Source: Candidatus Gastranaerophilales bacterium (GTDB lineage Bacteria > Cyanobacteriota > Vampirovibrionia > Gastranaerophilales > Gastranaerophilaceae). From it: a stretch of DNA of 34,739 bases. Positions 2,116 to 9,999 of the stretch are shown one piece after another. The stretch lies in contig CALVCJ010000018.1 in NCBI GenBank assembly GCA_944326015.1, forward strand, positions 1 to 34,739, written 5' to 3'. The notes under the pieces were generated by a model, which saw only the letters and a program-made list of their open reading frames with translations, did no database searches and was not told where the DNA came from. The stretch's first letter is position 1; each line of letters starts with the position of its first letter. The translations under genes were made by a program, and so were the position numbers.

Positions 2116-2658
2116 TCAAACACAAATCTTTTCAATAGCTTCAATATATTTTTCGTCCAAGAGATTAAAAATATCAGTCATACTGATTTGAGAGGGATAT
2201 TTTTTAGGATCAAATTCAACGTCTATGACTTCGCACAAATTTTTAATATACGAAACGGTTTCAACTGCGTGATGTTTGCGGCGGTTTCCTTCCCACTCAA
2301 ACGGCATACTTGCCAAGGCTTTCACTGACTTGTTATTATCCAAAGCCAAATCAACAAGCTGTTTTGTTGCACCGCAAGAAGTTCCGCCGCCAAGAGGTGC
2401 AATAATAACCAAGTTTGAAAACTCCTTTATTCTGTTCAAAATCTGTAACTTGCTTTCCCTGAAAGCTAATTCACCCTTAACCACATCGCCGCCCGAGGAC
2501 AAGCTATTACAGGTTTTCAGCCCGATACAAAAACCTGAATACTTTTCGACAACATTCTTATCCGTATCAACGAAAAGTTTTTCGATTTTGAGTTTAACTT
2601 TAGATAAAGCATTGCAACCGCCCCTGCCAACTCCGATTATAACTGTATTCTCAAGCAT
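2116..2658 (-). CDS. Short FtsZ/tubulin-like GTP-binding protein
   Basis: 180 residues matching only the N-terminal GTP-binding half of FtsZ. Motifs in order: IGVGRGGCNAL (T1, residues 8-18), LFVDTDKNV (T3 region), SSGGDVVKGELAFRES, the tubulin signature as PLGGGTSCGAT (T4; FtsZ has GGGTGTGA), and ASMPFEWEGNRRKHHAVE, matching the FtsZ PF.fEG..R stretch. The tail ISMTDIFNLLDEKYIEAIEK aligns with helix H7 and the protein stops just before the T7 synergy loop that supplies the catalytic acidic residues in a filament. It should therefore bind GTP but not form a normal GTP-hydrolysing FtsZ filament (inference). A perfect Shine-Dalgarno (AAGGAGGT) precedes the ATG, and a candidate operator/promoter lies at 2680-2711. 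It is not the chromosomal ftsZ. The frame stays open about 36 codons past the stop, so a longer ancestral form is possible. Confidence 0.78.
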   Translation of the reverse strand: MLENTVIIGVGRGGCNALSKVKLKIEKLFVDTDKNVVEKYSGFCIGLKTCNSLSSGGDVVKGELAFRESKLQILNRIKEFSNLVIIAPLGGGTSCGATKQLVDLALDNNKSVKALASMPFEWEGNRRKHHAVETVSYIKNLCEVIDVEFDPKKYPSQISMTDIFNLLDEKYIEAIEKICV

Positions 2659-2679: not shown

Positions 2680-2711
2680 ATTAACAAGAAGCTATGTCAA
2701 TTACGGGGGTA
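2680..2711 (-). promoter_or_regulatory. Operator site 1 and promoter of the FtsZ-like operon
   Basis: Reading leftward: TACCCC, spacer CGTAATT, GACATA, 9 nt, then TAATAT as -10. The downstream arm matches the shared operator TAYGTC-N7-GACRTA; the upstream arm is degenerate. It lies between the WYL gene stop and the FtsZ-like Shine-Dalgarno. Confidence 0.6.
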
Positions 2712-2714
2712 TGC

Positions 2715-3674
2715 TTAAAACTTCTTTCTAATCTCATCAATATAATCTTTATATTTCTTTTTCAAAACTTTCGGAGCGAGGATTTCGACTGCATATCCCC
2801 ATTTGAAAAGGTCCCAGATAATGTGTTTGTCGCCGCTTGCTTTAAAAGTCACAATCACGCTACCGTCAGGCTGCTGCTTCATTTTTTGTGTTGGGTGGAA
2901 GTTATAGTTCAAAACATCTTCCGCTGATTCCGGGATAAATTTTAATTTAACATCATAAACCTCACCGAAATAAACTCCAAAAGATTTTTTAGAAAATTCT
3001 TGCAAATCAAAACCTTTCGGATCAAACTTCTCTGCAAGAATTTCAACATTTTTAAGTTTATGTAAAATATAGTTGTATTCGTCCTGCCCTTTTGCATTTT
3101 CTCTTGCTATCAAGTGAACTTTTTCCCCGTAAATTAAGCCAAGAGGCTCTAAAACCCTGACTTTATCTTTGTATTCAGTCTGGATTTTTCTGTTTTCTTT
3201 AATCGCCTGACGTATTACAGAAACAACATTCAAATCAACTTTATAATTCTGTGACTGACGAACCGCATAACCTTCTGACTGAAGCAGTAACTCTACCTGT
3301 GCTTCATCCATTTTTGTATGTTTGTATTTAAGAGCCTTAACTTTTGTCAAAATTTCATCAAGCTCTGCCTGCGAAAGTTTATCGCATGTCGGTTTCAAAT
3401 TTTCCAAAAACGCAATATTTTTATTCGAAAATGACACAAGTTCATTCAACGAATAATTTGTAAATCCCCAACGTTTGCAACGTTCATCGGTTTGAATTTC
3501 TTCAACTTGTGGTAATATAGACAAAACACTATCACGCATTCTTTCTGCTGTTCGTCTGGAAACTCCAAAACGTTCCTGAATATCCTTCAAGGAAACTCCA
3601 TTCAATTTTGAAAGCATAAAAATTATCAGATCAATAATATCCGAAACTCTTGAATATCTTGGTTTATCTTCCAT
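2715..3674 (-). CDS. WYL-domain transcriptional regulator
   Basis: 319 residues. The N-terminus has a winged HTH (SLKDIQERFGVSRRTAERMRDSV, about residues 27-50). The middle contains the WYL sensor domain (about 150-225: VISVIR-like VVSVIRQAIKENRKIQTEYK, then PLGLIYGEKVHLIARE), where the usual Trp-Tyr-Leu triplet reads VHL. The C-terminal WCX-like part ends WGYAVEILAPKVLKKKYKDYI. WYL proteins such as PafBC, BrxR and CapW, by established knowledge, regulate DNA-damage or antiphage genes and may sense nucleic acids. Its own promoter at 3700-3729 carries the inverted repeat shared by three other promoters in the island, so autoregulation and control of the whole set is the simplest reading. Shine-Dalgarno AAAGGAG precedes the start. 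Confidence 0.9.
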   Translation of the reverse strand: MEDKPRYSRVSDIIDLIIFMLSKLNGVSLKDIQERFGVSRRTAERMRDSVLSILPQVEEIQTDERCKRWGFTNYSLNELVSFSNKNIAFLENLKPTCDKLSQAELDEILTKVKALKYKHTKMDEAQVELLLQSEGYAVRQSQNYKVDLNVVSVIRQAIKENRKIQTEYKDKVRVLEPLGLIYGEKVHLIARENAKGQDEYNYILHKLKNVEILAEKFDPKGFDLQEFSKKSFGVYFGEVYDVKLKFIPESAEDVLNYNFHPTQKMKQQPDGSVIVTFKASGDKHIIWDLFKWGYAVEILAPKVLKKKYKDYIDEIRKKF

Positions 3675-3699: not shown

Positions 3700-3729
3700 T
3701 AACATAAATATACGTCAAGTACGGACATA
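3700..3729 (-). promoter_or_regulatory. Operator site 2 and promoter of the WYL regulator
   Basis: Leftward: TATGTC, spacer CGTACTT, GACGTA, 9 nt (ending ATGT), then TAGAAT as an extended -10. Both arms fit the consensus TAYGTC-N7-GACRTA. The repeat covers the place where a -35 box would lie, and no good -35 hexamer at normal spacing is seen, so the factor could be an activator or a repressor that blocks polymerase. Confidence 0.7.
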
Positions 3730-3730
3730 T

Positions 3731-4852
3731 TTATTCTTTAGCTTTAAAGTTATACAGAGGTTTTAAATGATCAATTATTTCAGCAGCAGGTTCAATCGCT
3801 TTTATAATTTCTGTACTGTTTTTATATGCCATCGGGGCTTCATCAAGTGTTGCCGTTGAAATACAGCTTGAAAAAATCCCTGACAGTTGTTTTTTATATT
3901 CCTGCATGGTCAATTGGTCTTTTGCCTGCATTCTTGATAAAGCCCTGCCTGCACCATGCGGAGCAGAATTATTCCAATCCGGATTTCCTTTGCCAATGCA
4001 AATCAAAGAACCCTCCGCCATATTTAGTGGAATCAGTACTTTTTCCCCTTTATAACAAGAGATGGCACCTTTTCTAATAATTCTATCCTCTCCAATGTAA
4101 TTATGAACTGTTTCAAATTCATCTTATGCTTTCCAACGCATTCCAATCATAATATCATGTGCCATAATTTTACGGTTTAATTTTGCATATTCCCGGCAAT
4201 ATTTAGCACAAGTCAAATAATCCTGTGCATCTTTGTCTGTCAAAAATGAAAGCTGTTTTAGTTCACCCTCCCCATAACAATTTTTTGTGATTGCTAAATC
4301 TTGATAATGAATTGACAGCTTCAGCCCAATATTTCTTGAGCCGCTATGAATTATCAAATATGTTCCGGTTGAACCTTTTTCTAAAGAAATAAAATGATTT
4401 CCGCCGCCTAACGAACCGATTTTATTAACATGGTTTACAAAATTATCTTTCAGAATGTCTTTACAAATCTTTTTTGTTTTTTCAATAAATTCTTCCGGTA
4501 CAAGTTCGCTGAATCTTTTCCTCCCGTCCCTGCCAAAAGGAATATTCCTGCGAATAACTTTATCCAGTTTTTCATAATCGTTTGTAATATCGTTATCGCT
4601 CAATTTTATAACATGCATTCCGCAAAATTGATCTACTCCTATTATATTTGGAATAATTTCACCGCTTTTCGGTATTTCAGCAGTAAATCCTATTGTACAG
4701 CCTTTGCCTTTATGACAGTCAGGCATAATCCTAATTTGACAATCCTTAAATATAGGATGATTACAAACAGCAAGCGTTTGTTCTGTTACATCTGTATCTT
4801 CACTTTCTGTAAAAATTTTTGCTGATGTATATTTTCCTTTGATTTCGTACAT
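3731..4852 (-). pseudogene. rtcB: RtcB-type RNA ligase with in-frame TAA
   Basis: RtcB joins RNA ends (2',3'-cyclic phosphate or 3'-phosphate to 5'-OH) using GTP and Mn2+ through a histidine-GMP intermediate. The frame from 4852 shows MPDCHKGKGCTIGF, GVDQFCGMHV (metal Asp and Cys kept), SLGGGNHFISLE and IIHSGSRNIG, then TAA at 4126-4124. The same frame continues with DEFETVHNYIG, RIIRKGAIS, GEKVLIPLNMAEGSLICIGK and PHGAGRALSR, which holds the guanylylated histidine. Ignoring the stop gives about 373 residues, the size of the short RtcB subfamily. The stop stands where MRWKA-x-DEFETVHNY would be expected, so one base change (AAA or GAA to TAA) explains it. As written the ligase lacks its active-site histidine and would be dead unless the stop is read through or is an error. 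The start is 2 nt after the preceding gene. Confidence 0.88.
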
Positions 4853-4854
4853 AA

Positions 4855-5199
4855 TTATTTCCTCAATTTCATTTTTCTAACTATTTGTGCAACAGTTCTT
4901 TCGTCTGTGTGTAATCTTTCGGCAACAGCTTTAATCTTAAAATTACATTCTCCCCAGATTTTTCTAAATTCTTCATTTGTAACAGCTGTGCCTTCACAAC
5001 GGCAATTTGAAGGGATTTTGTCTTTGATTGAATATCCCATTGATTCTATAAAAGTCTTAAACTTTCCTAAATCAGTCCATTCACCGTTTTTGCCAGTCCA
5101 TTCTTTAGTTTCCGATTTGTAAAAATCCGAAATGTACTTCATAATCATCTGCATATTACCGCTGAAGACTACTTTGTTTGCTCTGATTAAATATTTCAT
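4855..5199 (-). CDS. Unknown 114-residue protein with C-terminal HTH, coupled to rtcB
   Basis: I do not recognise this family. The N-terminal two thirds (MKYLIRANKVVFSGNMQMIM) show no known motif; a Cys pair appears in SNCRCEG, and the last 40 residues look like a small helix-turn-helix (IKAVAERLHTDERTVAQIVRKM). The gene ends 2 nt before the rtcB ATG and its last codons supply the rtcB ribosome site (GAGG), so the two are translationally coupled and likely work together. It has its own operator/promoter (site 3, 5228-5257), the most symmetrical in the set. It could be an RtcB partner, an RNA-binding protein or a local regulator. Confidence 0.72.
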   Translation of the reverse strand: MKYLIRANKVVFSGNMQMIMKYISDFYKSETKEWTGKNGEWTDLGKFKTFIESMGYSIKDKIPSNCRCEGTAVTNEEFRKIWGECNFKIKAVAERLHTDERTVAQIVRKMKLRK

Positions 5200-5227: not shown

Positions 5228-5257
5228 TAAAATATAAGTACGTCTTATGCGGACGTA
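5228..5257 (-). promoter_or_regulatory. Operator site 3 and promoter of the HTH-rtcB pair
   Basis: Leftward: TACGTC, spacer CGCATAA, GACGTA, 9 nt, then TATACT as -10. The arms extend to 8 nt of perfect dyad (AGTACGTC at 5237-5244 and GACGTACT at 5252-5259 on the + strand). It is the best palindrome among the four sites. Confidence 0.68.
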
Positions 5258-5311
5258 CTCAATTAACACTCTTTTTAAAAGTTTTTTCAAGTCATTGAAA
5301 AGAATTGTGTC

Positions 5312-5813: not shown

Positions 5814-5927
5814 GGACTTGAAAACATATGCAACAAGAGCGATGAATGGAACACAACAAAGTTTAAGCTGCGTCCGAATTGGACAGAGTGCAGAGTTAAG
5901 ATAAAAATAAGAAAAAAAAGGAACGCA

Positions 5928-7793: not shown

Positions 7794-9848
7794 CTAAAAC
7801 CCCACAGAATTCTGCAACTCTTTAGACTTTTTGACCCTAACTTCATCTTCAAGCATCTTGGGAAGTTCGTCTAAATCAGTTATACATAAGAAATCAGCTT
7901 TCTTTTTCACTGTTGCAAAATCGCCGGCAGTCAAGCCTTTTATACTTACATCCGCATTTTTAATCCCGAAAAAGTGGTCAAACGCTGTGTTTACCTGCTC
8001 TTTTGTCATAAAATCAAATTTGATTTTAAACGTAAACCGCCTCAAACTAGCTTCATCAAGCGTGTCAAGCAAATTCGTCGTACATACAAACGGGTATTCG
8101 TGAGCTTCCATCCACGTCAGCATCTCATTCACCTGTGAGATTTCCCAGTTTCTTACGGCATTACTTCGGTTTTGCAAAAATGAATCTGCCTCGTCAAAAA
8201 TCAACATTGCTTTTTTCGATTTGGCTTCAGCGAATGCATCTGCAATATTTTGTTCAGTTTCGCCGACGTATTTTGAAATCAAATCACTTGCACGTTTCAT
8301 TATTACTTCAACCCTGAGTTCTTTGGCCAAATATCTTGCATACAAACTTTTTCCGGTTCCGGGTTCGCCATAAAGACATAAGGAAAAATTCAATTTCCCG
8401 CAAGTTTTTATTTTTGCGGTCAAATCCTTTATATCCAAATCCGTATTTACGAGATTGTCATTATATTCTTTCATTTCAAACTCTTTCTTCTTTTTAACAT
8501 TTTTCTTTTTAGTCGCAACTTTTGCAACATTTTCAACAAAGATCTCAAAATCATCCTGATAACCGTTAATAAGTTTTGTTGTCTTAACAGCATTTGTAAT
8601 CAATGACGGCGGGATTTCGTAATTTTTGTTTAATTCCACAAGTTTTTTGTTATCTATTTTAAATTTGTTTTTGCGAATAACCCGTTTCCAAATATTCAGG
8701 CGGATGTCATCTGTCAATTTTTCAAACTCGACAGTATAAGTCATTCTACGCAAAAACGCCGGATCAACATCATAAATATTATTTGTCGTCCAGAAAATCG
8801 GAATAGGTGTTTCTTCAATCAGCGTGTTCAGGTAAGCCTTCGATGCACTCCCAAATTCAGTAAATCCTCTGTTCATAACATCTTCAGCTTCATCAAACAA
8901 CAGGCATGAGTTTGAGGATTTTGAAAGGATTGTTTGTTTTGATGATAAATCGCTCAGTCGGTCTTTTCTTGAGGCTTCTTTGTCCATAAATTCTGCGGAA
9001 ACTAAATACATATCACATTTTGCTTTGTTTGCGATAAGTTTCGCAAACTGGGTTTTGCCTGTTCCGACAGAACCGTAAAGCAGAATATTTATTCCTTTAG
9101 CGTGGTTTTTAATCGCTGAAGTCAAGATATTTAAAGCAATATTCTGCTCTTTTGTCAAATGCTCAAAATCTTTCCAATTAAGTTCAGTCTTTTGGCTCTT
9201 ACCAAGCAGAAGATTTTTAATCTGGTTTTTTGTTTTAATTTCCGGATTGCCAAATACTTCAAGAATTTTACTATTCAAAACGAATTTACTATCGTTGATT
9301 CCCTGTTTTATAAACACCCCTTTTTTAAATAATTCTTTTTTTATTCGGTTCAATGTCCAAATTTTTAATTCCAATACTTGAATTCCAAAAATTTCAAATT
9401 CCTCATATAAAAAACCATCAAAATATTTATGGAGTTCGTCAACACAACGATTGATAACTTTAAATATGTAAAATGAAACTATTTCTTGTTCTATACCATT
9501 TAAATTATATAAATTTGAAACAAATTCAATTTTATTCTTGAGTGAAGATTTTTTATATGTCAACTTTTCCAATTTGGCAATGATAATTTGTTTTAAGGTG
9601 CTTCTAAAATTTAGTTCTTCATTGTAATCTAAATACTCGTGATATTTAGGACACTTACTTCTGGGTAAATCCAGCATACTAATTAGATCTCTGTAAAAAA
9701 AGCTAAATTCACTTTTGTTGATATTAAAGTTGTCAATTAGTTTTATCAAATATCGACATAACACAGCACATTCAAAGGCTGAACATTTCGAGCGTCCTTT
9801 AAGTTTATCATTTAATTTATCATAATTTTCTATCAATTTATTAACCAT
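7794..9848 (-). CDS. Double-AAA+ ATPase, CDC48/Vps4-like
   Basis: 684 residues with two AAA+ modules. Residues 1 to about 225 are a helical region I do not recognise. Module 1 has Walker A GSVGTGKT (about 257-264), Walker B LLFDEAED (about 313) and LRRMTYTVEF after it. A Lys-rich linker (KKKNVKKKKEF) leads to module 2 with Walker A GEPGTGKS (about 492), KYVGETEQNI, Walker B MLIFDEADSFL (about 545) and LRRFTFKIKF. Both Walker A and B sets are complete, so both modules may bind and hydrolyse ATP, probably as a ring that remodels protein. The likely substrate is unknown; the shared operator (site 4 at 9876-9905) ties it to the FtsZ-like, WYL and RtcB genes. No neighbour follows it on the same strand within 2 kb. 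Confidence 0.88.
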   Translation of the reverse strand: MVNKLIENYDKLNDKLKGRSKCSAFECAVLCRYLIKLIDNFNINKSEFSFFYRDLISMLDLPRSKCPKYHEYLDYNEELNFRSTLKQIIIAKLEKLTYKKSSLKNKIEFVSNLYNLNGIEQEIVSFYIFKVINRCVDELHKYFDGFLYEEFEIFGIQVLELKIWTLNRIKKELFKKGVFIKQGINDSKFVLNSKILEVFGNPEIKTKNQIKNLLLGKSQKTELNWKDFEHLTKEQNIALNILTSAIKNHAKGINILLYGSVGTGKTQFAKLIANKAKCDMYLVSAEFMDKEASRKDRLSDLSSKQTILSKSSNSCLLFDEAEDVMNRGFTEFGSASKAYLNTLIEETPIPIFWTTNNIYDVDPAFLRRMTYTVEFEKLTDDIRLNIWKRVIRKNKFKIDNKKLVELNKNYEIPPSLITNAVKTTKLINGYQDDFEIFVENVAKVATKKKNVKKKKEFEMKEYNDNLVNTDLDIKDLTAKIKTCGKLNFSLCLYGEPGTGKSLYARYLAKELRVEVIMKRASDLISKYVGETEQNIADAFAEAKSKKAMLIFDEADSFLQNRSNAVRNWEISQVNEMLTWMEAHEYPFVCTTNLLDTLDEASLRRFTFKIKFDFMTKEQVNTAFDHFFGIKNADVSIKGLTAGDFATVKKKADFLCITDLDELPKMLEDEVRVKKSKELQNSVGF

Positions 9849-9875: not shown

Positions 9876-9905
9876 TAAGCAAGAACTATGTCACTTACGG
9901 ACAGA
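9876..9905 (-). promoter_or_regulatory. Operator site 4 and promoter of the AAA+ ATPase
   Basis: Leftward: TCTGTC, spacer CGTAAGT, GACATA, 9 nt, then TACAAT as -10. The 9-nt stretch (GTTCTTGCT) resembles the one at site 1 (GCTTCTTGT), so the similarity extends past the arms. Confidence 0.68.
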
Positions 9906-9999
9906 GACTTCAAGTCATTAACACAAATATTATCAAATAGCCGAATGGATAATAAATATTAATAAAACTAAATAGATAAACTTAAAAATAGAGTTTTTG

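Follow-up and report, generated by a model that had tools for sequence, protein, structure and literature searches.

In Caulobacter, DriD is a transcriptional activator switched on by single-stranded DNA, and its site, ATACGAC-N7-GTCGTAT, overlaps the -35 element (PMC12340889). Its regulon includes didA (division inhibitor), bapE, recJ and dnaG, and a site is also located 5' of driD itself (PMC12340889; PMC4211646). The damage-induced division inhibitors SulA, SidA and DidA are normal members of such regulons (PMC4211646). SulA, MciZ and the phage protein Gp0.4 block the T7 face of FtsZ (PMC13423816). In addition, accessory FtsZ-superfamily proteins that occur beside a normal FtsZ were described as FtsZl1 and FtsZl2 (Makarova and Koonin 2010).

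The window analyzed here, a stretch of 34,739 nucleotides, is contig C18 of a 2.0-Mb Gastranaerophilaceae genome (labelled G000). An ORF at positions 2116–2658 of the minus strand (start codon ATG, stop codon TGA at 2118–2116) encodes a short FtsZ-like protein of 180 aa, named FtsZ-A in this work. A separate complete FtsZ (399 aa) with the T7 loop and the C-terminal peptide is encoded by the same genome. FtsZ-A matches the Pfam tubulin/FtsZ GTPase domain PF00091 with 48.8 bits (cut-off 33), and the best-matching solved structures in the PDB are those of FtsZ (E 2.3e-11). The AlphaFold2 model (pLDDT 90.1, pTM 0.88) ends with helix H7 (residues 160–179), in agreement with the alignment, and according to the Foldseek analysis its full length aligns with the FtsZ N-terminal domain (TMq 0.84–0.87). 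The PF00091 score and the fold place the protein in the FtsZ/tubulin superfamily. The earlier note on this DNA had read the protein as stopping at the H7-like helix before the catalytic T7 loop and had proposed a structure prediction against FtsZ; alignment and model confirm that the predicted GTPase domain ends there.

FtsZ-A retains the T1 (GVGRGGCN), T4 (GGGTSCGA) and T5 (PFEWEGNRR) motifs, together with the Phe of H7 (F164) and the position D168; the Asn residues of T6 ('PND') and of 'NTD' are not kept. The unusual T4 signature reported earlier is indeed present in the translation and departs from the GGGTG(S/T)G pattern. The claim that all nucleotide-binding motifs are present holds for T1, T4, T5 and the nucleotide-binding half of the domain, but not for the T6 Asn and the N of 'NTD'. 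The GTP pocket, apart from this lost T6 Asn, appears to be mostly kept, and the protein may bind GTP.

FtsZ-A shares the N-terminal GTPase fold, the T1/T4/T5 loops and H7 with bacterial FtsZ (TIGR00065; PF00091 + PF12327), but differs in having no T7 loop, C-terminal domain or tail, in its GGGTSCG T4 and in accompanying a complete host FtsZ, with which its identity is ~28–30%. Its TIGR00065 score (58 bits) is below the equivalog cut-off of 295.2, and no match to PF12327, the FtsZ C-terminal domain, was found in it. Judging from these scores and from the missing parts, FtsZ-A is a member of the superfamily and not an FtsZ ortholog. The earlier view that it cannot polymerise as FtsZ does is supported. 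Assignment to the known accessory proteins was rejected on anatomy: FtsZl1 has a coiled coil, an alpha-helical C-domain and vWA/GTPase operons, whereas FtsZ-A has no C-terminal part and no vWA domain was found among the scanned neighboring proteins; FtsZl2 has T7 and a ~300-aa C-terminal region, and FtsZ-A has neither. TubZ membership was rejected on the same grounds. A TubZ-like segregation filament would fit the location of FtsZ-A on a mobile element (see below) and the ParB-like gene of some relatives, but the T7 loop and C-terminal domain used in head-to-tail assembly are missing and plasmid and phage comparisons give little, so that this role is very improbable. FtsZ-A had no match among phages or in IMG/VR, and the plasmid matches were only distant Pseudoalteromonas FtsZ sequences with intact T7; phage and plasmid origins were rejected on these results. 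No description of FtsZ-A was found in the literature searched.

Searches of 146 and 383 relatives detected FtsZ-A in 13 genomes, plus one decayed copy, and none outside Gastranaerophilaceae among 289 genomes of the class. In the tree of N-terminal domains, the 12 intact sequences formed one clade (support 100/99) apart from host FtsZ. The clade spans six genera of Gastranaerophilaceae with a distribution that does not track genera, and all its members are 180–205 aa long; the search for short family members that had been suggested thus yielded a conserved family. T4 is GGGTSCG in the nearer members and GGGTS[CNS]G in the others, and most lineages are without the T6 Asn, the residue that reads guanine.

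The earlier note had allowed that this copy might be merely truncated by the TGA at 2116, with close relatives extending through T7. Relatives of 84–90% and of 48–49% identity end at the same column. Translation past the TGA adds 34 residues, which are unrelated and contain no T7 loop, and a tblastn search of the window with the C-terminal half of host FtsZ found no remnant. Truncation is ruled out by the common end column, the clade and the lack of a downstream remnant. The dN/dS values of the relatives against the window copy are 0.13–0.21, and on these values the gene is under purifying selection. Decayed copies do exist, one with an in-frame TGA (G026) and one fused to WG repeats (G309), but the 12-member clade with its common end point, the low dN/dS and the missing C-terminal remnant refute decay for the window copy and make a decaying truncated FtsZ extremely improbable as an explanation. 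In the G309 fusion (locus L089, 216–1064), residues 1–126 of FtsZ-A are joined in frame to the WG repeats.

The gene order of the window element is HTH, small protein, RtcB (split), WYL, FtsZ-A, DUF2924, WG repeats and serine recombinase. The following features are on the minus strand. A large serine recombinase (3–866, Pfam-type domain match) is interrupted by the contig end, and the DUF2924 protein (1677–2087), a mobile-element module, was recognized by domain match and relatives. A regulator with WYL and WCX domains is encoded at 2715–3674. Domain matches identified the C-terminal (3731–4021) and N-terminal (4124–4852) pieces of RtcB, a gene split in the window copy, whereas in relatives it is one intact 373-aa gene. 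The RtcB operon begins with a small conserved protein (4855–5199, domain scan and relatives). A two-domain AAA ATPase (7794–9848) is a presumed regulon member, based on an upstream site. In three other loci from different genera (L034, L035 and L087), the elements share a hotspot beside a bifunctional-nuclease-type gene.

Residues 6–307 of the WYL protein match 9pfq (E 1.6e-42) and 8tp8 (E 1.9e-42), its best solved structures. The entries 9pfq, 9pfv and 9pga are DriD of Caulobacter, and we take 8tp8 to be DriD as well. The similarity covers the full length, including the HTH helix RRTAERMRD, and assigns the protein to the DriD family; the E value against PafC was 0.54. The phage-defence regulators BrxR and CapW share the wHTH-WYL-WCX architecture and a location near defence-type genes, but they are repressors with other sites and were not among the PDB matches of the WYL protein up to an E value of 1. 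In 12 of the 13 loci, no more than ~6.5 kb separates the WYL gene from FtsZ-A, although WYL homologues number only one or two per genome. Activation of the window protein by single-stranded DNA is assumed by analogy with DriD. Since no LexA above the cut-off was found in the 19 genus genomes searched, the DriD-type switch may be the main DNA-damage switch in the genus.

A core motif, CCGTAnTTGACrTA, was spotted by eye 5' of the WYL and FtsZ-A genes and then tested. The first 15 kb contains three copies, where 0.21 would be expected. Its left half-sites, which had not been selected for, show dyad symmetry (3.46 of 6 positions against 1.70 by chance; 0 of 2000 as high), which gives the dyad TAYGWC-N7-GWCRTA. 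The DriD consensus ATACGAC-N7-GTCGTAT is an instance of this dyad. Strict dyads are located at 3711–3729, on the regulator's own gene, and at 5239–5257. The corresponding predicted operators on the minus strand are ATATGTC-cgtactt-GACGTAT of the WYL gene (3710–3730) and TACGTC-CGCATAA-GACGTA of the RtcB operon (5238–5258); the stem at 5235–5261, at first impression a terminator, is the latter operator. The predicted operator of the AAA ATPase, TCTGTC-CGTAAGT-GACATA (9886–9906, minus strand), has one mismatch to the strict dyad. If T[AC]YG is allowed (TCTG), the window holds three dyads against 0.05 expected. FtsZ-A is preceded by a degenerate predicted operator, ATACCCC-cgtaatt-GACATAG (2692–2712, minus strand), which overlaps the -35 of its predicted promoter (-35 TTGACA, 2700–2695; -10 AATAAT, 2676–2671). 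Of its half-sites, only the right one is good in the window, and G004 has a better left one; a full dyad precedes the short FtsZ gene of G314. A weak operator-like dyad with two mismatches (5869–5887) was also seen before the likely true start of a DUF1643 gene, and DUF1643 recurs beside WYL in many relatives.

Across the loci, 22 of 23 dyad sites adjoin ORF starts, mostly 44–58 bp upstream, and none was found in 75 kb of control sequence around host FtsZ genes. The whole G000 genome has four strict dyads, two in the window element and two in contig C90, all beside WYL genes; those in C90 (L131) are located 5' of a phosphoesterase and of a PD-(D/E)XK nuclease-type gene, beside the second WYL gene. 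The total number of sites in a genome is no higher than with the reversed-pattern control; the evidence consists in the positions of the sites. With families defined at 60% identity, the core motif was located 5' of genes in 7 of the 21 FtsZ-like families, as against 5 of the 293 other families (p 1e-6), one of the seven being circular since the motif was seeded from the window; the remaining 14 FtsZ-like families have no recognized operator. Predicted DriD-type dyads are located 5' of FtsZ-like genes in relatives and of several operons within the element, and membership of FtsZ-A in a DriD-type WYL regulon is well supported by these sequence comparisons. The resemblance to the Caulobacter DriD/DidA checkpoint extends to the full-length WYL homologue, the dyad and its spacing over the -35, the operator on the regulator's own gene and the DNA-acting regulon genes; the window system differs in being on a mobile element and in having an FtsZ half-protein as the candidate inhibitor.

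The DriD-type regulator and operator of this regulon favor a role induced by DNA damage or infection. Of the two opposite faces, FtsZ-A has kept the nucleotide face but not the T7 face; it could therefore bind to the T7 side of host FtsZ and terminate the chain. In the explanation we prefer, at somewhat less than an even chance, FtsZ-A is a division inhibitor induced by damage or infection, and once docked on host FtsZ it cannot be extended. Single-stranded DNA accumulating through DNA damage or through phage or element replication would lead the WYL protein to switch the regulon on. FtsZ-A would then use its nucleotide-binding face to dock on host FtsZ, at the T7 face that the latter exposes; lacking a T7 face of its own, it would neither allow extension nor supply the catalytic Asp, so that the chain would end without hydrolysis. 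Division would be delayed while other regulon products act. The conserved H7-ended GTPase domain, the separate complete host FtsZ, the adjacent gene of the predicted DriD-like regulator and the DriD-type dyads are read from the sequence; the switching-on of the regulon and the poisoning step are what we infer from them. The fuller proposal, a mobile, DriD-type, LexA-independent damage response of gut Vampirovibrionia whose checkpoint effector is a halved FtsZ that poisons host filaments as a chain-ending subunit, is put forward more tentatively.

The proposed target face (the T7, or bottom, side of FtsZ) and the outcome would be shared with SulA, MciZ and Gp0.4 of phage T7, whose folds are unrelated to FtsZ, whereas FtsZ-A is an FtsZ homologue. 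Several observations count against poisoning: the low identity to host FtsZ, the absence of an equivalent of the E. coli FtsZ interface residue Q47, the single good half-site of the window operator and the FtsZ-like families without an operator. Caulobacter DidA, moreover, is a small membrane protein that acts on FtsN, not FtsZ. The earlier interpretation, in which FtsZ-A might sense GTP, cap or poison host filaments, is partly supported as a whole; the conservation of the family, the second short FtsZ of some loci and the regulon with its DriD-type WYL regulator and operator go beyond it.

This second short FtsZ, termed B, suggests a partner role of its own, which also speaks against poisoning. 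B was found in G004, G060, G236 and G080; it is 217–223 aa long, carries GGG[CF]GTGAT and likewise ends at H7. The A and B genes overlap by 8 bases in G080, where a full dyad precedes B, and lie within one element in the other three genomes. The window contig stops inside the recombinase, before the position of B in relatives, and a search of the rest of G000 yielded no B. A UvrD helicase fused to a PD-(D/E)XK nuclease adjoins FtsZ-A in 8 of the 13 loci, and McrBC and DnaB-like genes are located beside other FtsZ-like genes of relatives. The main rival explanation draws on this pairing, on the helicase-nuclease, on the divergence of FtsZ-A from host FtsZ and on tubulins as assembling components of conflict systems (PMC7159879): FtsZ-A would be a GTP-dependent switch or scaffold that binds GTP without hydrolysis in the absence of a T7 partner and, as a heteromer with B or the helicase-nuclease, gates a complex, host division not being the target. 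It is possible but rather unlikely, given that no close B was found in G031 and G016, which have A, that in the window and in G265 A stands beside WYL with no helicase-nuclease between, and that the guanine-reading Asn is missing from most A lineages. A fixed WYL-FtsZ-helicase operon was rejected: of 146 genomes, 39 have the helicase-nuclease, most of them without FtsZ-A, and the window does not contain it.

The defence-type neighbors of the relatives (McrBC, UvrD-nuclease, WYL) are also consistent with a defence-island role in which FtsZ-A serves as a decoy or guard for the FtsZ inhibitors of phages. FtsZ is a target of phages, and its complex with Gp0.4 is sensed by a defence protein (PMC13423816); predicted-inactive division homologues were proposed to bind viral proteins (PMC7159879). 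Gp0.4, SulA and MciZ bind the T7/C-terminal face, however, and because FtsZ-A is missing this face a decoy function is improbable; PADLOC profiles and defence-system libraries gave no match to FtsZ-A either.

If the preferred reading of FtsZ-A as a chain-ending division inhibitor is true, DriD-type control would exist outside Proteobacteria, on mobile elements and in bacteria without detectable LexA, and the damage response, division control and defence-type genes would be joined in one transferable module. Known damage-induced FtsZ inhibitors have unrelated folds; a homologue with one interface would be a natural dominant negative, and FtsZ-A would be a direct tool for studying FtsZ filament polarity and capping.

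Other loci encode further short FtsZs of 170–218 aa, as well as forms of 310 aa whose T7 residues are altered. Two accessory FtsZs of 310 aa with altered T7 catalytic residues (L095, 9320–10252; L101, 7576–8508) are located beside UvrD-nuclease, McrBC, DnaB-like or WYL genes. An IMG/VR contig (L103, 1–621) encodes a separate H7-ended FtsZ of 206 aa with GGGTGTG amid uncharacterised genes. In G043 (L039, 9319–10744), two FtsZ genes are adjacent: the first product (198 aa) has no T7, and the second (278 aa) has a degenerate GTPase domain with a T7-like and C-terminal region, so that the pair resembles a split FtsZ. On Pseudoalteromonas megaplasmids (L086 and L105), a second FtsZ is located directly 3' of a WYL regulator, and L086 adjoins McrBC; this pair was rejected as the same system, since the FtsZ is full-length and the WYL protein shows an identity of only 24%, limited to part of the sequence.
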